Below are positions 4,237 to 35,796 of a stretch of 64,000 nucleotides of DNA, piece after piece. This DNA comes from Alphaproteobacteria bacterium (GTDB lineage: Bacteria > Pseudomonadota > Alphaproteobacteria > Micropepsales > Micropepsaceae). Numbering within the stretch: position 1 is the first letter of the stretch; each line of letters starts with the position of its first letter. The position numbers were made by a program, and so were the translations under genes. The stretch spans positions 186,001 through 250,000 of the forward strand of contig JAATGP010000004.1 of the NCBI GenBank assembly GCA_015654635.1. The letters are read 5' to 3'. The notes below the pieces were generated by a model that was not told the DNA's origin, did not search any database, and saw only the letters and a list, made by a program, of their open reading frames with translations.

Positions 4237-4265
4237 TTGTTTATTCTTGTTTATCACTGTATAAT
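4237..4265 (+). promoter_or_regulatory. Sigma-70-like promoter for the orphan small gene
   Basis: There is a perfect -10 TATAAT at 4260-4265 and a -35-like TTGTTT at 4237-4242, with a 17-base spacer. The -35 region is itself part of a near-direct repeat (TTGTTTATTCTTGTTTATC) that could be a regulator site. The surrounding 100 bp is markedly AT-rich against a GC-rich chromosome. It predicts a transcript start near 4272 and a leader of about 24 nt before ATG 4296. Confidence 0.5.
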
Positions 4266-4295
4266 ATATGATATTTTTTTATCTTGGGGGCGTCG

Positions 4296-4475
4296 ATGTT
4301 GAATGCAATCAAGGAAATGGCTTCGGAGAAAGACATTTCTTCCAAGACACTTGACGGTTTTGCGCCGACAAAAGAGCCATGGCAGACTCCGCAGCTGCGC
4401 GCGATTGACCTCAAGTCACTTCCGGCAAATATCAGAGAAGAATTTGAACGGCAGCTCGGAGAGTTGAAGCGATAG
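4296..4475 (+). CDS. Orphan small protein, 59 aa, with W-x-x-P-x-L motif
   Basis: The start is ATG 4296, preceded by a GGGGG tract; the track start at 4284 is a TTG upstream of it. The product (MLNAIKEMASEKDISS...) is highly charged, has no signal peptide, and carries KEPWQTPQLRAIDL followed by an amphipathic helix (IREEFERQLGELKR). The W-x-x-P-x-L pattern recalls N-terminal leader regions of some RiPP precursors such as lasso peptides. However, no maturation enzymes are nearby and there is no obvious core peptide. It has a strong-looking promoter and lies between two direct repeats. Function unknown. Confidence 0.5.
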   Translation: MLNAIKEMASEKDISSKTLDGFAPTKEPWQTPQLRAIDLKSLPANIREEFERQLGELKR

Positions 4476-4683
4476 CCGCGCCAGTTCGCGTCTGCGCCCT
4501 ACCACGAAGGTGCCCTACAACCCATCAATCCATGTAGCGGAGATCGCAATAAGAAATGCGGTCTTTGAGATGGCGACTTCTGGCGCATTACCCGTTGCTG
4601 CCGTTGTAGGAACGTCCGGTGTTGGTCGCGGTGCAGACAAAGAATCCGCCAACGCCGGAGGGCCATCGCTGGGATTTCCGCCC

Positions 4684-4764
4684 CTTGAAACCGGCACAAC
4701 GTGCTCCCATTTTTGTTGGGCTGTTTGACAGAGTGAAAAAGCAGATGTGCAAGGGCTTGGCATT
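4684..4764 (+). repeat. Direct repeat unit B (~81 bp)
   Basis: Second copy of the element at 3998-4079, in the same orientation: CTTGAAACCGGC at 4684, TTTGACAGAGTGAAAAAGC at 4724-4742 and CTTGGCATT at 4756. Together the copies flank the AT-rich promoter and the 59-aa gene, with about 600 bp between them. No further copy was noticed in the window. Confidence 0.75.
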
Positions 4765-20704: not shown

Positions 20705-23640
20705 TGATCGTCCTCGGTGCGGATTTTGAGGTCGAAACGCATGGCCTCATCCATAATGTACTGCAATTCGGCATTGTGCTGGCTCATCAAACCGGCGGCG
20801 GTGGAGGCATATTCGGGACGCCCGACATAGCGGGGACGGACGCGCCGGCCCAGCTTCTCCATAAGATATTCGATTCGCTGCCGGACGAAATACCAAGCCC
20901 CCTGATTGCGCGGCTCTTCCTGGACCCAAACGATTTCGGCATTGGGGAAGCGCTCCAACTCCTGGCCTAAGGGACCCTCCGGGAAGGGATAAAGCTGTTC
21001 CAGGCGCAACATCTGCACCCGCGGCTCGTTGTGCTTTTCCCGCGCTTCCATGAGATCGAAATAGACTTTGCCGCTACAGAGGATGACGCGGCGGATATCC
21101 TCATCGGGCGCGAGTTGCACGGAGGTGGCACCGGGCACGCATTCGGCCTGATCGCGGAAGACACGGTGAAACGAGGTGCCGGTTTCCAGATCAGAAAGGA
21201 ACGAGACGCAGCGCTTGTGGCGCAGCAGCGATTTCGGCGTCATCAGAATCAGGGGCTTGCGGAAGGTCCGCATCATCTGACGCCTGAGGACATGGAAATA
21301 ATTGGCGGGCGTGGTGGGATAACAGACTTGCCAATTATCCTGCGCGCAAAGCTGCAGATAGCGCTCCAGCCGGGCCGAAGAATGCTCGGGACCCTGCCCC
21401 TCATAGCCATGCGGCAACAGCATGACGAGACCGCACATCTTCAGCCACTTCATCTCGCCCGAGGCAATGAACTGGTCGATCAAGACCTGCGCGCCGTTGG
21501 CAAAATCGCCAAACTGGGCTTCCCAGAGCACCAGCGCCTTGGGCTCGGCGGTGGCATAGCCGTATTCGAAGCCAAGGACCGCCGCTTCCGAAAGCAACGA
21601 ATCGATCACTTCGAATTCGGCCTGGGTTTTGGAAATGGCGTTGAGGGGAACGTGGCGGGCTTCGCTTTCCTGATCGACCAGCACCGAATGGCGCTGCGAG
21701 AAGGTGCCGCGACCGCTATCCTGGCCCGACAGGCGCACAGGCACGCCCTGTTGCACCAAGGTGCCAAAGGCAAGCGCCTCGGCGGTGGCCCAATCGATGC
21801 CCTCGCCGGTCTCGAACATGCGCGCCTTGTTTTGCATCTGGCGCACGATGGTCTTATGGGCGTTGAAGCCCTCTGGAATAGTCGAGAGCGCCTTGCCCAC
21901 TTCGAGCAGTTCGTGCTTGTCGACCCCGGTCTCGCCGCGACGGTCGCCGCCTGCTGGCGCCATTTCAAACCCGGTCCAGCGGCTTTCCAGCCAATCGGCG
22001 TGGTGCGGCTCGTGGGTTTTGGAGGCTTCGAATTCGGCGTCCAGCCGGGCGTTGAAGTCGCCCACCATATGCTGAACTTCGCTGTCGGCCAGGGTGGATT
22101 CGCTCACCAGCTTCTTGGCATAGAGTTCGAGTGTGGTGGGATGGTCCTTGATGGCGCGATACATCAAAGGCTGGGTGAAGGAAGGCTCGTCGGTTTCGTT
22201 GTGACCGAACCGCCTGTAGCAGTACATGTCGATCACCACGTCTTTGTGAAAGAGCTGGCGAAACTCCGTGGCGATACGGGCGCAATGCACCACCGCTTCC
22301 GGATCGTCGCCATTCACATGGAAAATCGGTGCCTGCACCATCAGGGCGATATCGGTGCAATAGGGCGAGGAGCGCGAATATTGCGGCGAGGTGGTGAAGC
22401 CGATCTGATTGTTGATGACGAAATGGATGGTGCCGCCGGTATGAAAGCCGCGCGTGCCCGACATGGCAAAACATTCGGCGACAATGCCCTGCCCCGCAAA
22501 AGCGGCATCGCCATGCAGGATCAGCGGCAGAACGCTGGAGCGCGTGGCGGTGTCGCCATGTTGGAACTGTTTGGCGCGGGCCTTGCCGAGAACCACCGGA
22601 TCGGCGGCTTCCAGATGCGAGGGATTGGGGGTCAGCGAGAGGTGGACGTGGTTGCCATCAAAGCCGCGGTCGGCGGAGGCCCCGAGGTGATACTTCACAT
22701 CGCCACTGACCGTGATCTCTGTGGGGATGGCGCTGCCGCCGCGAAATTCGTGGAAGATCTGGCGATATGGCTTGGAGAGTAGGTTGGCGAGCACGTTGAT
22801 GCGGCCGCGATGGGCCATGCCGATGGTGATCTCTTTGACGCCGAGCTGGCCGCCGCGTTTGATGATCTGTTCCAGCGCCGGCATCATGGCCTCGCCGCCA
22901 TCAAGGCCGAAGCGCTTGGTACCGAGGAAGCGCAGGGCGCAGAACTTCTCGAAGCCTTCCGCCTCGATCAGCTTGTTCAAAATCGCCCGCTTACCGGCAG
23001 GGGTGAAGGTGATGTCTTTATCGGGGCCTTCGACGCGCCGCTGCAGCCAATCCTTCTGCTCGGCATCGTTGATATGGGTGAACTCGTAACCGATGCGCCC
23101 GCAATAAGTGCGCTGGAGCAAATCCACCATCTGGCGCAGCGTGGCGGTCTGCAGCCCAAGAACGCCATCGATGAACACAGGCTTGTCGAGATCGCCATCG
23201 CCAAAGCCATAGAATTTCGGATCGAGCTGGGGGACGGCCGGTTTGGGCGTTAGCTGCAAGGGATCGAGATCGGCGGCGAAATGGCCGATGACGCGATAGG
23301 CGCGCACCAGCTGAATGGCGCGGATCGAATGTTGAGCGGCGGCCAGCACGTCGGCGGCGCCCGACGGTGCCTCACCTGGGGCAGCCACGGCACCCGCTGT
23401 CGCGGCGCGTTCGGCCCAAGAAGGGCCAGAGGCTGCGGAGACGGGGGCGGACGGGCCGTTTGGGCCTTCCAACTCGGCAAAATAGTGCGCCCATGAGGGG
23501 TCGACCGAAGCTGGGTTTTCCAAATACTGGGCGTATAGCGATTCGACATAATCCGCGTTGCCGCCGAATAAGAATGCGGTTTCCTCGAAAATGGCGTTAG
23601 ACGCCCGGGAGAGCCGTTCTGGGGAGTTTTGCTGGGTCAT
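20701..23640 (-). CDS. sucA: 2-oxoglutarate dehydrogenase E1 component
   Basis: 979 aa, standard length. It is thiamin-diphosphate dependent and decarboxylates 2-oxoglutarate to give succinyl-lipoate on SucB. The N-terminal E2-binding helix ([35 protein letters not shown]) is conserved. The ThDP motif [18 protein letters not shown] is near residue 377, and the C-terminal transketolase-like domain contains [22 protein letters not shown]. The start ATG 23640 gives the usual [10 protein letters not shown]-type N-terminus. It is first in the sucAB transcript, with a 143-bp divergent promoter gap to the acyltransferase gene. The 583-aa plus-strand ORF across it is a shadow. Confidence 0.97.
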
Positions 23641-23783
23641 GTGGGGGAGCGCGATGATGAGTTTAGAACCGTTCGAATTGAATGATTTAACGCAATTCGC
23701 GGGCGAAGACCACGTTTCTTGCGCAAGCCATGGTGGACAGCGGTAACAGGCGGTAAATTCGTCGTGTTGCGAGGGGGGTGCCG

Positions 23784-24941
23784 ATGAAACGCCTTTATTC
23801 TCTGGACGCCATCCGCGGCCTGGCGGCGCTTACCATCGTGATTTGGCATTGGCAGCATTTTTTCGCCCTTTCCGGCCAGTGGCAGACCGTCTGGAGCCGC
23901 GATTGGCAGCCCTTTTACCAGCTTCTGAAACCGCTTTATCTCGAGGCCTGGGCAGCGGTTGATCTGTTCTTCGCCCTCTCCGGCTTTGTCTTTTTCTGGC
24001 TCTATCGTGAGGCCATCCGCGAAAAGAAGGTCAAGGCAGGCACATTCGCCCTGCTGCGCTTCTCGCGGCTGTGGCCCCTGCACGCCTTGATGCTGGTGAC
24101 CATAGCGCTGTTGCAGGCTGTGTTCTTCGCCAAAACCGGCAACTATTTCATTTTCCCGGCCGGAGATTGGGACCGCTTTGTCGCCGGGCTCTTTGCCGTG
24201 CAGCAATGGATCCCGCCCAATGCCGAACAGACCTTCAACGGGCCGGCCTGGACCGTGTCGGTAGAAGCCGGGCTCTATGTTCTGTTCTTCGTGCTGTGCC
24301 GCCTGGGTTTCAACGGCTGGCGCACAGCCCTGATCGTGGCTTTGTGCGGCATCCCACTGTTTCACTGGAACTGGTTCATCAGCCGCGGCTTGATGGGTTT
24401 CTTCCTCGGCGGTCTTGCCTATTTCACCGTGGAAAAAATCCGCCAAAAGAAAAGTGCGCGCGTCCTCGCCAAGATCGTTGGCGTGACAACCCTGGCGCTC
24501 TGGGCCTTTGTGGTGATCGAGATTCTCTATGGCCCGCTGCATAGCGCACTCTCGGCGCTGTCCGATATCGTACCCGACGCCTGGGATGTCTATAGCGAGA
24601 ATGTCGATGACATTTTTCATATCGGCTATATCTTCACGGTCGTGCCATTGACCGTGATTGCGCTGGCCTTGAGCGAAACCGTGCTCAACCTGTTTCCCAC
24701 CTTTTACAAGAAGACCACCTCTCTGGGCGACATCTCCTATGGCGTCTACATGCTGCATTTCCCGCTGCAAACGGCCTGCGCGCTCATCGCTTTGTATCTG
24801 GGGCTGCAACCGGTGTTCTTTATGCAAGGTTGGGTGATGCTCGCCTTTTACGCGGTGCTTTTGAGCCTCGCCACGGTATCGTATTATTATTACGAAAAAC
24901 CGGTGCAGAAGCTCATCCGCAAATGGGTGGACAGAGCTTGA
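23784..24941 (+). CDS. Acyltransferase 3 family membrane protein
   Basis: 385 aa from ATG 23784, five bases after GAGGGGGG. A multi-TM inner membrane O-acyltransferase (OafA/NodX-like): the N-terminal family signature RLYSLDAIRGLAALTIVIWHW holds the Arg and catalytic-type His, and the C-terminal half shows DISYGVYMLHFPL. About ten TM helices. Such enzymes acetylate surface polysaccharide or peptidoglycan sugars; the acceptor here is unknown and no SGNH domain is fused. It is transcribed against sucCD and sucAB and sits between them. Its stop is 1 bp from the sucD stop. Confidence 0.85.
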   Translation: MKRLYSLDAIRGLAALTIVIWHWQHFFALSGQWQTVWSRDWQPFYQLLKPLYLEAWAAVDLFFALSGFVFFWLYREAIREKKVKAGTFALLRFSRLWPLHALMLVTIALLQAVFFAKTGNYFIFPAGDWDRFVAGLFAVQQWIPPNAEQTFNGPAWTVSVEAGLYVLFFVLCRLGFNGWRTALIVALCGIPLFHWNWFISRGLMGFFLGGLAYFTVEKIRQKKSARVLAKIVGVTTLALWAFVVIEILYGPLHSALSALSDIVPDAWDVYSENVDDIFHIGYIFTVVPLTVIALALSETVLNLFPTFYKKTTSLGDISYGVYMLHFPLQTACALIALYLGLQPVFFMQGWVMLAFYAVLLSLATVSYYYYEKPVQKLIRKWVDRA

Positions 24942-30714: not shown

Positions 30715-31719
30715 ATGCCCGAATACCGCAGCTACGACAGGATCGGTGTCATCGGGGCTGGCGCCTGGGGAACCTCGCTGGCGCTGACCGCCGCACGGGC
30801 TGGCCGCCAAGTGCGGCTGTGGGCACGCGAGGCGGAGGTGGTGGACGCCATTGCCGCGACCCGCCAGAACAGCCTTTTCCTGCCTGGGGTGCCCCTGCCC
30901 GAGACCATCGAGGGCACGCCTGATCTGGGGAAAGCAGTGGCAGGCGCCGACGCGCTGCTGATCGTCCCGCCGGCGCAGCATTTGCGTGCCACCTTGATGG
31001 CGGTGGCGGCGGTGGCGGCCAGGGGCACGCCGCTGGTGGTCTGCGCCAAAGGCATCGAGCGCGGCACGGGAAAGCTCGTTACCGAAGTTTTGGCGGAAGC
31101 CGCGGAGGGCTTTGCGCCCGCCATCCTTTCCGGCCCCTCCTTTGCGCGCGATTCCGCATTAGGCCTGCCCACAGCGGTGACCATCGCCGCGGAGATGGGA
31201 ATCGCGGAGCGCCTGCAGGCGAGCCTTAGCCATTCGACCTTTCGCCCCTACGCCAGCGACGATCTTGTGGGTGTGGCCCTGGGCGGCGCGGCGAAGAATG
31301 TCTATGCCATCGCTTGCGGCATCGTCGACGGCATGGGGCTTGGCGAAAGTGCCAGAGCCGCGCTCCTCGCCCGCAGCTTTGCCGAGCTCTCACGGCTGGG
31401 TGGGGCGCTCGGCGCCCGTACCGAAACACTGATGGGGCTGGCGGGGCTTGGCGATCTGGTGCTGACCGCGACCAGCCCCACCTCGCGCAATTTTCATTTC
31501 GGCCAGGAGGTGGGACGCGGCAAAACGATTGCCGAGCTGCGCGTGCCGGGACACCCCCTTGCCGAAGGCGTCGAAACCGCCCCCGCGCTGGTGACACGCG
31601 CCCGCGCCGAGCAGATTGAACTGCCCGTCGCCGACACTATGGCGGCCGTGCTGGATGGCAGCCTGCCGCTTCAAGGCGCCATTCTACGGCTGATGAGCCG
31701 GCCGCTGAAATCGGAGTAA
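30715..31719 (+). CDS. gpsA: Glycerol-3-phosphate dehydrogenase [NAD(P)+]
   Basis: 334 aa, normal length. It reduces dihydroxyacetone phosphate to sn-glycerol 3-phosphate for phospholipid synthesis. N-terminal Rossmann motif IGVIGAGAWGTSLALTAARAG; conserved KGIERGTGKLVTEVL, LSGPSFARD, the catalytic Lys region GGAAKNVYAIACGIVDGMGLG, and C-terminal GLGDLVLTATSPTSRNFHFG. AGGA precedes the ATG. First gene of an operon with YciI-like and EVE genes, a common alphaproteobacterial arrangement, here interrupted by a Cap15-like gene. Confidence 0.97.
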   Translation: MPEYRSYDRIGVIGAGAWGTSLALTAARAGRQVRLWAREAEVVDAIAATRQNSLFLPGVPLPETIEGTPDLGKAVAGADALLIVPPAQHLRATLMAVAAVAARGTPLVVCAKGIERGTGKLVTEVLAEAAEGFAPAILSGPSFARDSALGLPTAVTIAAEMGIAERLQASLSHSTFRPYASDDLVGVALGGAAKNVYAIACGIVDGMGLGESARAALLARSFAELSRLGGALGARTETLMGLAGLGDLVLTATSPTSRNFHFGQEVGRGKTIAELRVPGHPLAEGVETAPALVTRARAEQIELPVADTMAAVLDGSLPLQGAILRLMSRPLKSE

Positions 31720-31752: not shown

Positions 31753-32046
31753 ATGCCTTTGTTCATGTTCATTGCCTTTGACAAGAAGCAGGGCGGCGCT
31801 GCCTTGCGCGCGATCACCCGCCCGCACCATGTCGAATACACAAAGTCTAACGGCAAGGTAAAATTCGGTGGCCCGTTTACGGGCAGCGACGAATCCATGA
31901 TCGGCAGTTTCTCGATCATCGAAGCCGCCGATTACGACGAAGCTCAGGCTTATGTGAAGAACGATCCCTATGTTTTAGCCGGGCTTTTCGAGCGCCAGGA
32001 ACTGCATCCCTGGAAGCTCACAATCAACACGTTCGAAAAGCTCTAA
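31753..32046 (+). CDS. YciI-like protein 1
   Basis: 97 aa with AAGGAG seven bases upstream. YciI family (dimeric alpha/beta ferredoxin-like fold): the His-Asp type active-site region is represented by RPHHVEYTKSNGKVKFGGPFTG, followed by GSFSIIEAADYDEAQAYVKNDPYVLAGLF and a terminal HPWKLTIN. Family members are small enzymes of mostly unknown role, sometimes chlorohydrolase-like. It lies 33 bp after gpsA. A second YciI gene lies downstream at 32832. Confidence 0.85.
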   Translation: MPLFMFIAFDKKQGGAALRAITRPHHVEYTKSNGKVKFGGPFTGSDESMIGSFSIIEAADYDEAQAYVKNDPYVLAGLFERQELHPWKLTINTFEKL

Positions 32047-32194
32047 TCCGCAACCGGAGACTTGGGCGGCGCACCGCTGCGTCATTCAAGTCGCGGTTGA
32101 TATTCTTGAATGCCTTATGGTTATTCCCTAGGCTGAGAGATGCAGCTGGTTTGCCCGAGGGGGGCGCAGGGCCACTGCGAGACTGGGGGGCGGT

Positions 32195-32791
32195 ATGCAC
32201 GCATTCAGCGGCGGCAATTCGCACATTAGCACGCATGTCTGCTTGGGCGGCTTGGCATTCGCCTTCGACATTTTGCTCATTCACCTGCTGACACCCTTGC
32301 TGATCTATGCCCCTCTCTATGACATTCTCGCCATCACCGCCTTTTTCTGCATCCTTCTGTTTTTTTGTCTCGAGATTGCTTATTCGACGGTCTTTTGGCG
32401 CGCCCTGAAAGCGAAGGACAAATACCAATTTTCCGGCGCCTATGAGGAATGTACGGTGTGCGGCCAAGTGACGGATTTTCCCGCCACGCTGAGAATTTGG
32501 CAGTACTGGAACACCATTGAAATCAACTTCAAAAGCAGCGATGGCATCTTCAAATCGATAACAGCCGCGATTGTCAAAAATCGGCTTGAGAAGGGCGATG
32601 TCGAACTCGTCTTCAGCTTCCAGTCCAGCGGTTCGCACCGTGGCGCCGAGCGCGAAGGGGCGTATCTGGGCACCTTCATCCTGAAGCACGGCGCAGATGA
32701 TGACACCGCGGAGGCGTTCTATTTCACGGAATCAAAGCGCAGCAATTTCCGCCACCTCTATATGAAGCGGATGCCGAGCTATCCGGCGTAA
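32195..32791 (+). CDS. Cap15-like two-TM, beta-barrel protein (orphan CBASS-type effector fold)
   Basis: 198 aa, ATG 32195 after a GGGGGG tract. Two adjacent TM helices (about 15-38 and 42-64) lead into a beta-rich domain. It reads in order FSGAYEE, then FPATLRIWQYWNTIEINFKSSDGIFKSITAAI, then VELVFSFQSS, then EGAYLGTFIL, then EAFYFTESKRSNFRHLYMKR. This order matches what I know of the SMODS-associated 2TM beta-rich family (Cap15): G-x-W/Y, 'I.Q.W..I.I..KT...S.S..A.I', 'L.Y.Y', 'H.G...L', 'G.YF', final 'L.R'. In CBASS, Cap15 binds a cyclic dinucleotide and disrupts the inner membrane. No cyclase, Cap2/Cap3 or other defence gene is visible here, so the signal and role are unknown. Confidence 0.6.
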   Translation: MHAFSGGNSHISTHVCLGGLAFAFDILLIHLLTPLLIYAPLYDILAITAFFCILLFFCLEIAYSTVFWRALKAKDKYQFSGAYEECTVCGQVTDFPATLRIWQYWNTIEINFKSSDGIFKSITAAIVKNRLEKGDVELVFSFQSSGSHRGAEREGAYLGTFILKHGADDDTAEAFYFTESKRSNFRHLYMKRMPSYPA

Positions 32792-32831: not shown

Positions 32832-33122
32832 ATGCTCTTCGTTGTGACCGCACTCGACAAAAAAGATTCACTGGCTTTGCGCCTTTCGGTGCGCGAGGCG
32901 CATTTGGCCTATGCGCGCGAGACCGGGCGCATGAAGCTAGGCGGGCCACTTCTGGATGAGAAGGGCGAGATGGCCGGCAGCCTGATGATCGTGGAAGCAC
33001 CGGACCGGGCGACGGTCGAGGCTTGGCATGCCGCCGATCCCTATGCCGAGGCCGGTCTGTTCGCGCATTCCGACATCCGACCCTGGAAGCCGACCTTCAA
33101 TCCCTCCGGAGCCACCTTCTGA
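32832..33122 (+). CDS. YciI-like protein 2
   Basis: 96 aa, second YciI-family gene in this operon: MLFVVTALDKKDSLALRLSVREAHLAYARETGRMKLGGPLLDEKGEMAGSLMIVEAPDR, ending in RPWKPTFN. It is clearly related to copy 1 (shared FxDKK, GGPL/F, GS..I.EA, DPY...GLF, PWK) yet strongly diverged. The stop overlaps the EVE gene's start by one base (TGATG), so these two are coupled. In relatives a single YciI usually sits next to the EVE gene, so this copy looks like the ancestral neighbour. Confidence 0.85.
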   Translation: MLFVVTALDKKDSLALRLSVREAHLAYARETGRMKLGGPLLDEKGEMAGSLMIVEAPDRATVEAWHAADPYAEAGLFAHSDIRPWKPTFNPSGATF

Positions 33123-33538
33123 TGGCCTACTGGCTGTTCAAAACCGAACCATCGGCATGGTCGTGGCAACAGCAGAAGAAAAGGGGTGCCAAGGGCGAAG
33201 CGTGGAGCGGCGTGCGCAACCATCAGGCCGCGAACAACATGAAAGCCATGGTGCAAGGCGATCTCGGCTTCTTTTACCATTCGGTGGAGGAGAAACGGAT
33301 CGTCGGCATCGTCGAAGTGAGCGGGCTTTACCGTCTCGACCCCACGGATGAGACGGGAAAATTCGGTCTCGTCGAGGTTAAAGCCGTGGGCGATCTACCC
33401 AAACCCGTGACCCTAGCCACAATCAAGGCGGAGCCGAAACTCGCCGAAATGGTGTTGGTGAAAAACTCACGGCTTTCCGTCCAACCGGTCACACCTGCCG
33501 AATGGCAGATCATCTCAGCCATGGGCGGACTCAAGTAG
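33122..33538 (+). CDS. EVE domain protein
   Basis: 138 aa from ATG 33122, overlapping the previous stop (TGATG). EVE (PUA-like) domain: N-terminal MAYWLFKTEPSAWSW, WSGVRNHQAANNMKAM, GDLGFFYHSVEEKRIVGIVEVSG and the closing LVKNSRLSVQPVTPAEWQII. EVE domains are PUA-like folds thought to recognise modified bases in DNA or RNA. Stand-alone EVE proteins next to gpsA or tsaD are common in Alphaproteobacteria. Specific target unknown. Confidence 0.9.
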   Translation: MAYWLFKTEPSAWSWQQQKKRGAKGEAWSGVRNHQAANNMKAMVQGDLGFFYHSVEEKRIVGIVEVSGLYRLDPTDETGKFGLVEVKAVGDLPKPVTLATIKAEPKLAEMVLVKNSRLSVQPVTPAEWQIISAMGGLK

Positions 33539-34350: not shown

Positions 34351-34821
34351 TCACAGCGCCTTGCGGCGGGCGACGGTATAAGGGGTGTAACCGGCCTTTT
34401 CGTAGACCCCTGCCGCCAGTTCATTGCCCGCCAGATGGCCGATGCGGATGATTTTGTGGCCTTTGGCACGGCTCCAAGCCTCGCAAGCAGCCAAAAGCGC
34501 CTTTCCAGCCCCCTGCCCGCGTGCGCCCTCCTCGACATAAAGCTCGCAGATTTGCGCGGCGCGGCGCTCTTCTTCGATGACATAGGCTGGGGATTCGCTC
34601 TCGATCACCACCACCCAACCGATCAGGCCGCCTTCGCCCTCGGCGACGAAAATAGTGCCTTTTTCGGCTTCCTTCATCATGGCCGCGAATTGGTCTTCGC
34701 CATAGGCGGGATCCAGGCGGCGATCATATTCAAAGCCTGCTTCGTAACGCTGCAGCCCCCAGATAAAGGCGAGAATAGCGGGTCTGTCCTCAGGCAGGCG
34801 GGCGGAGCGGACGGTAATCAT
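34351..34821 (-). CDS. GNAT acetyltransferase 1
   Basis: 156 aa from ATG 34821 (AGGAG ten bases upstream); the track start adds 20 residues. GNAT fold: motif A with acetyl-CoA pyrophosphate loop VEEGARGQGAGKALL, preceded by AAQICELYVEE and followed by GHLAGNELAAGVYEKAGYTPY. The N-terminal RSARLPEDRPAILAFIWGLQRYEAGFEYDRRLDPAYGEDQF closely parallels the second GNAT at 35236. Likely an N- or small-molecule acetyltransferase; substrate unknown. The DUF6614 gene lies one base upstream, so they are an operon. Confidence 0.85.
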   Translation of the reverse strand: MITVRSARLPEDRPAILAFIWGLQRYEAGFEYDRRLDPAYGEDQFAAMMKEAEKGTIFVAEGEGGLIGWVVVIESESPAYVIEEERRAAQICELYVEEGARGQGAGKALLAACEAWSRAKGHKIIRIGHLAGNELAAGVYEKAGYTPYTVARRKAL

Positions 34822-34822
34822 C

Positions 34823-35173
34823 TTAGAATTTCTCCTCACCTTCCCGGCGTCCAGGATCGGGGAAGTCGCGGTATAGAGCAAAGGTCAGATTGGCGGCAAA
34901 ACGATTGACGTCGAAATGCCGGCTTTCGACGGGCTCGGCGCGGGCGGAGACTCGGGCAAAAGCGCGCTCCAGCTGAGCGAGATTTTGGGTCTGCATGACA
35001 CAATGAAATTCGCCGAGTTCGCGGGGCCCGAGGCCCAGCTTGCGGCGCGTGAGCTGCCAGCCTTCGATCAAGCTTTGGGCCTTCAGATGCTCCAAGAAAC
35101 GGGCGAGATTGCGGGCGAAATCGAGGTCCTTCGTTCCCGGCTTCAAATCGAAAAAAGCGTGGTAGTGGTCCAT
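34823..35173 (-). CDS. DUF6614-type protein
   Basis: 116 aa from ATG 35173 (MDHYHAFFDLKPG); a TTG at 35188 is an alternative. It matches an uncharacterised proteobacterial family I recall as DUF6614: 'HYH..F.LKPG..D.DFA......L.HLK.QG.IEG..LTRRKLGLGP.ELGEFH', with the GLGPRELGEFHCVMQTQNLAQL segment diagnostic. Ferredoxin-like dimeric folds are plausible. It sits between two related GNAT genes and is coupled to the first. Function unknown. Confidence 0.65.
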   Translation of the reverse strand: MDHYHAFFDLKPGTKDLDFARNLARFLEHLKAQSLIEGWQLTRRKLGLGPRELGEFHCVMQTQNLAQLERAFARVSARAEPVESRHFDVNRFAANLTFALYRDFPDPGRREGEEKF

Positions 35174-35235: not shown

Positions 35236-35796
35236 TTAAGCGGCCGAAAGCGGCAGGCGCTTGGCGCGGACAGGCCGCAGCGGGATGACGTTCAACTCTT
35301 CGGCGGTTTCTTCCCGCGCGGGCAGGAGGCGCTTTTTGACTTCATGGCAATAAGGCAAGTAGCCGGCTTTGGCATAAGCGCGGGCGGCACCGGCATTGCG
35401 GGTGAGAAGATCGATGCGCATGGTGGCATAGCCGTTGGCCATCGCCCAATCTTCGCAAGCCCGAATGAGTTTCTGGCCGGAGCCTGAGCCGCGCCCGTCT
35501 TCGCTGAGATAAAGTTCGGCGAGATAGGCAAAGCGGCGCTCATCGGCGCGGATAAAGGCTTCGCTCTGTTCTTCGTAGACGGCAGCCCAGCCGATGGGGC
35601 GGTGCGCGTCGTCTTCGGCCATGAAGATCGCACCTTTTGCGGTGCGCTCGAGGAGGTAGGCGAAGTACTCCTCGGCCATGGCGAGATCGATCAAGTGGTT
35701 GGGTTCGAGGAACGATTCGTAGCGTTGCAGCGCTACGATGTAGTCGAGGATCACTGGCTTGTCGTTCGGCAGCCGCGCCTCTCTGATGGTACACAC
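35236..35796 (-). CDS. GNAT acetyltransferase 2
   Basis: 186 aa. Same architecture as the GNAT at 34351: IREARLPNDKPVILDYIVALQRYESFLEPNHLIDLAMAEEYF at the start, then LAELYLSEDGRGSGSGQKLIRACEDWA (acetyl-CoA loop) and NAGAARAYAKAGYLPY. A C-terminal extension of about 30 residues (EETAEELNVIPLRPVRAKRLP) is absent from copy 1. The two copies are probably old tandem duplicates, now separated by the DUF6614 gene. Substrate unknown. Confidence 0.85.
   Translation of the reverse strand: MCTIREARLPNDKPVILDYIVALQRYESFLEPNHLIDLAMAEEYFAYLLERTAKGAIFMAEDDAHRPIGWAAVYEEQSEAFIRADERRFAYLAELYLSEDGRGSGSGQKLIRACEDWAMANGYATMRIDLLTRNAGAARAYAKAGYLPYCHEVKKRLLPAREETAEELNVIPLRPVRAKRLPLSAA

Follow-up and report, generated by a model that had tools for sequence, protein, structure and literature searches.

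In CBASS, the barrel of Cap15 effectors senses cyclic dinucleotides, and oligomers of the transmembrane (TM) part then disrupt the membrane (reviewed in PMC10419184; staphylococcal Cap15, PMC10686824). OptE, the 2TMbeta effector of Panoptes, turns toxic when deprived of c-di-AMP, its ligand (PMC12657218, PMC12657230), and the ligand-binding residues of the Panoptes 2TMbeta proteins are reported to be conserved (PMC12657230). In the literature consulted, Cap15-type effectors are placed under a partner enzyme, i.e., a cyclase in CBASS or a synthase in Panoptes. The window analyzed here, a 64-kb stretch of DNA from a bacterium described as being of the soil type, encodes a protein of this kind for which neither partner was detected in the assembled genome.

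A chromosomal member of the S-2TMbeta family

The open reading frame (ORF) at positions 32195 to 32791 of the plus strand lies exactly where the first-pass annotation placed it, starts with ATG, and encodes 198 amino acids, and the motifs quoted for it there are present. Its sole Pfam match above the cut-off is Cap15_CD_rec (PF18153; 43.5 bits, threshold 31.2, E = 4.6e-11), which covers residues 92 to 192, and it is the only PF18153 gene in its own genome; the orthologue of a sister species scores 40.5 bits. The PADLOC '2TM' effector models match residues 8 to 193 (E = 1.3e-12), essentially the full length of the ORF, and a home-made HMM of 20 further Cap15 proteins, all from outside the host genus, recovered the ORF as its sole match in the window (E = 4e-11). 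In a phmmer search against PDB sequences, Cap15 (7n34) ranked first (E = 0.006). The Cap15_TM profile PF23471 gave no match to the ORF at E values up to 1, and it does match a control Cap15 (L043). The product of 32195-32791 is a member of the S-2TMbeta/Cap15 protein family, as had been proposed from the order of its motifs.

Hydropathy and AF2 modeling agree with the first-pass description of two N-terminal TM helices followed by a beta-rich domain. The first helix (32234 to 32302, plus strand; about residues 14 to 36 or 38) has a Kyte-Doolittle peak of 2.1 and corresponds to an AF2 helix at residues 9 to 35, and the second (32315 to 32395, plus strand; residues ~41 to 67) has a peak of 2.66 and corresponds to an AF2 helix at residues 41 to 74. 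The remainder (32414 to 32770, plus strand; residues 74 to 192) is assigned by PF18153, AF2, and fold search to an eight-stranded lipocalin-like barrel, i.e., a Cap15-type cyclic-dinucleotide receptor domain.

The full-length AF2 model, which was based on a two-sequence alignment, reached a pLDDT of 44.5, with TM helix 1 as its better-scored part; it was left out of the fold search in favor of a barrel-only model. Scans of viral contigs, carried out to widen the AF2 alignment, found no relatives. The barrel-only model was computed template-free and shows eight strands (pLDDT 60.6, pTM 0.50), and the ranking of PDB folds obtained with it is free of template steering. Against all solved structures, the top three matches were Cap15 chains of 7n34/7n35 (probability 1.00; TM-score 0.53 to 0.54 by query and 0.62 to 0.64 by target); a retinoic-acid-binding protein of the lipocalin family came next. 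The E values (0.013 to 0.043) are modest because the confidence of the barrel model is modest. The first-pass annotation had named two outcomes that would speak against its assignment, a fold without the eight-stranded barrel and profile hits to unrelated membrane proteins only. Neither was observed: the barrel-only model has eight strands, and Cap15 structures lead its fold ranking.

Position within the gpsA operon

The gene order of this housekeeping operon is gpsA, YciI, Cap15-like gene, YciI, and EVE, all on the plus strand. The gpsA gene for glycerol-3-phosphate dehydrogenase (30715 to 31719), named from its sequence and from the first-pass annotation, has a conserved position in the congeners. 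It is followed by the first YciI-family gene (31753 to 32046; PF03795, 1.6e-14), which forms the left flank of the insert, and the right flank is formed by a second YciI-family gene (32832 to 33122; PF03795, 6.2e-21) and continued by an EVE-domain gene (33122 to 33538; PF01878, 1.2e-42). The distance between the two YciI genes is 785 bp here, versus 1 to 13 bp from the stop codon in L015, L016, and L018, the congeners closest to the host among those with both YciI genes. The claim that the gene splits a gpsA-YciI-EVE operon is thus upheld by the empty site in congeners, with the refinement that the actual place of insertion lies between two tandem YciI genes.

The site is not untouched otherwise, in contrast to the conserved operon assumed in the first-pass annotation, since some congeners carry other extra genes in the same operon. 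In three of them, the gpsA-YciI interval holds a gene for a secreted SGNH-hydrolase-like protein of about 265 to 277 amino acids with the motif GDS (L022:2247-3080, L031:366-1163, and L036:247-1041; family assigned by eye), and a fourth has another small gene within the operon. The gpsA operon seems to accept extra genes, and occasional gene gain at this place is not unique.

The insert is preceded by a 148-bp leader (32047 to 32194), which is partly conserved with the sister species (alignment score 117; shuffle maximum 23). The sigma-70 consensus had no match in the leader, which possibly represents a promoter or a ribosome-binding region. A search for boundary repeats of mobile elements around the insert revealed repeats at chance level only, and tblastn found no plasmid or phage homologues of the protein.

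Two further observations concern the neighborhood. A 396-aa ORF (23637 to 24827, minus strand) without a Pfam match at E values up to 1e-6 lies between the genes for the 2-oxoglutarate dehydrogenase E1 component and succinyl-CoA ligase. Two GNAT-like acetyltransferase paralogues (34351 to 34881 and 35236 to 35796, minus strand) are ~45% identical to each other and conserved in the sister species.

Distribution and constraint

Among 59 other genomes of the host genus that were searched, a PF18153 gene is present in a single one, that of the sister species (Rhizomicrobium sp. MAG, JARLIR010000103.1). The sister orthologue occupies the same site and is 79% identical across all 198 residues, with a conserved ATG and zero indels. 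Substitutions at codon positions 1, 2, and 3 amount to 29, 16, and 64, respectively, which together with the dN/dS given below marks the sequence as coding. An antisense ORF at 32024 to 32689 was rejected as a real gene on these grounds, as the substitutions track the codon positions of the plus-strand frame.

For the whole gene, dN/dS between the two species is 0.103/0.787 = 0.13, and the dS value lies in the range of the neighboring genes (0.65 to 1.4). The gene was therefore present in the common ancestor and has been retained since. Judged from these substitution patterns, it is old, vertically kept under purifying selection, and functional, and neither a fresh insertion nor a wreck. The barrel is the more constrained part, with a dN/dS of 0.075/1.011 (about 0.07) versus 0.156/0.588 for the TM part. 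That the gene is a decaying remnant of a lost CBASS operon might be read from the absent cyclase and the long branch of the protein, but both species have an unbroken, indel-free frame, and dN/dS is 0.13 at a dS of about 0.8, comparable to that of the neighboring genes, which makes this explanation highly improbable.

Search for a partner cyclase

The first-pass annotation had called the gene an orphan, and a genome-wide search agrees. No CD-NTase is encoded in the 64-kb window and no SMODS match was found in the host genome (93% complete); three PADLOC oligonucleotide-cyclase models, which cover part of the CD-NTase clades, likewise found none in this genome or in that of the sister species (82% complete). 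The PADLOC models were used, with positive controls, because Pfam SMODS (PF18144) missed most of the true cyclases linked to Cap15: when seven Cap15-adjacent cyclases were scanned directly, it matched two, one of which passed the cut-off, whereas the PADLOC models together recovered the adjacent cyclase in all seven Cap15-bearing control genomes. Pfam SMODS alone was accordingly rejected as proof of absence, and the lack of SMODS matches is weak evidence against CBASS. As no CD-NTase is encoded together with the effector in the 93% complete genome, the locus does not qualify as a CBASS system.

An ordinary CBASS effector acting in trans would require a CD-NTase in the unassembled part of the genome or in a clade missed by the models. 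Both assemblies are incomplete and single models do miss cyclases, but incompleteness alone would hide a cyclase in both assemblies with a chance of only ~1%, if the two are independent, and the PADLOC models succeeded in every control. Moreover, an immediately adjacent cyclase is present in 23 of the 25 other Cap15 loci, and near-invariant barrel residues are replaced in the protein described here (see below). Taken together, a CBASS effector in trans is unlikely.

The two exceptions among the 25 loci are found on plasmids, one of Psychrobacter (see the last section) and one of Novosphingobium. The latter, on the megaplasmid NZ_CP141945.1 (L080:8726-9292), encodes a Cap15-like barrel in a frame without the usual TM helices; the region has no annotated genes, and no match to a cyclase exists within 18 kb. 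Two other loci also showed peculiarities. In Bradyrhizobium sp. 62B (CP092842.1), a second, divergent 2TM-beta gene (L079:4699-5292) adjoins two CBASS operons and is itself adjoined by a divergent 150-aa ORF (4248 to 4700, minus strand) without a Pfam or PADLOC match. The Cap15-cyclase pair of the Citrobacter plasmid CP068026.1 (L068:2562-4305) is distributed over several frames and is either broken or poorly sequenced.

The Panoptes synthase mCpol (PF18182) had no match in the host and sister genomes at E values up to 10; without mCpol (OptS) in either of them, the locus is not a Panoptes system. A Panoptes-type effector, whose toxicity a cyclic dinucleotide would hold in check, is suggested by the fact that OptE belongs to the same S-2TMbeta family (PMC12657218, PMC12657230). 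Besides the missing mCpol, however, a protein that is toxic in its apo form should be lethal without its synthase unless a housekeeping nucleotide restrains it, and we consider this reading very unlikely.

Altered barrel residues and candidate ligands

The barrel was compared with 20 cyclase-linked or plasmid-borne Cap15 proteins in an alignment at 15 to 20% identity. The panel-conserved residues W68, G81, I101, Q103, W105, S121, G159, and Y176 are kept in both species, and five others, each present in 19 to 20 of the 20 panel proteins, are replaced in both (W to Y83, S to F119, Y to F142, H to Y157, and G to R186). In the tree, the stem leading to the pair is long, at 2.96 changes per site, and the pair has no settled place within the family. 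The replacements suggest that the ligand may have changed, the positions being compared by alignment and not by pocket assignment. Of the two options given in the first-pass annotation, a signal made elsewhere or a non-CBASS use of the fold, we lean towards the latter in view of the replaced barrel residues and the absent cyclases.

Our preferred explanation, which we hold with about as much doubt as confidence, is that the gene encodes a divergent S-2TMbeta (Cap15/OptE) protein without a cyclase of its own, which has become fixed on the chromosome and most likely senses a ligand other than a CBASS cyclic dinucleotide. Sensing of something else is proposed since constraint is highest in the barrel and yet the conserved residues of this domain have changed. 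The protein would reside in the inner membrane with its barrel in the cytosol, where a ligand would switch the oligomerization of the TM hairpins. The resulting oligomer would permeabilize the membrane, either in the mode of Cap15 (ligand on, toxic) or in that of OptE (ligand off, toxic). An effector of the Cap15 mode without a source of ligand would be inert and should decay, and one of the OptE mode should be lethal; the long retention of the gene therefore argues that some ligand reaches the protein. Most economically, a source in trans that is neither a CD-NTase nor mCpol would supply this ligand, which may be a host nucleotide, a nucleotide perturbed by phage, or another small molecule. 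As GGDEF proteins are present in both genomes (five in the host and four in the sister species), c-di-GMP is one candidate; GGDEF proteins are common in bacteria and their presence is weak evidence for this ligand. The incompleteness of the two assemblies, the partial clade coverage of the cyclase models, and the presence of the gene in just two species count against the preferred explanation.

A more specific version, which we regard as quite unlikely, is a one-gene guard that would read a housekeeping nucleotide pool, e.g., c-di-GMP, and break the membrane upon perturbation by phage, as a synthase-free analogue of Panoptes.

Another reading, to be judged as rather unlikely, is that the fold was recruited to a membrane role that is neither defensive nor lytic, for example, in a small-molecule-sensing or envelope protein tied to the phospholipid-precursor operon around it. 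The chromosomal, vertically inherited position within the gpsA operon, the constraint, which is strongest on the sensor barrel, and the replaced conserved residues are all in keeping with such a role. However, the architecture of two helices and a barrel matches that of the toxic effectors along the whole protein, and, as regards a functional tie to gpsA, most congeners lack the gene and unrelated genes also enter the operon. If our preferred explanation of a divergent effector with another ligand is true, the module of sensor and membrane hairpin can run on a signal other than those of CBASS and Panoptes, and the Cap15-like protein offers a small and directly testable candidate for ligand finding.

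Comparison with known systems

With Cap15 of Yersinia aleksiciae (7n34/7n35; PF18153 and PF23471), the protein of the window shares two N-terminal TM helices and an eight-stranded lipocalin-like barrel. It differs from CBASS Cap15 in the lack of an adjacent or detectable CD-NTase, in the replacement of near-invariant barrel residues and the missing PF23471 match, and in the location of its gene outside any mobile island. Family and architecture are likewise shared with OptE/2TMbeta of the mCpol-2TMbeta system Panoptes (PMC12657218, PMC12657230), from which it is set apart by the absence of the mCpol synthase and by the loss of several family-invariant residues.

A parallel with respect to the missing cyclase is the mobilizable 9.8-kb plasmid pA11BP3 of Psychrobacter (NZ_MN657019.1), which encodes a Cap15 (L076:1742-2374; Pfam, 112 bits) and no cyclase on the whole replicon. 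This second orphan Cap15 is of a different kind: unlike the chromosomal gene described here, it has a canonical sequence and travels on a mobilizable element, and its host may supply the cyclase.
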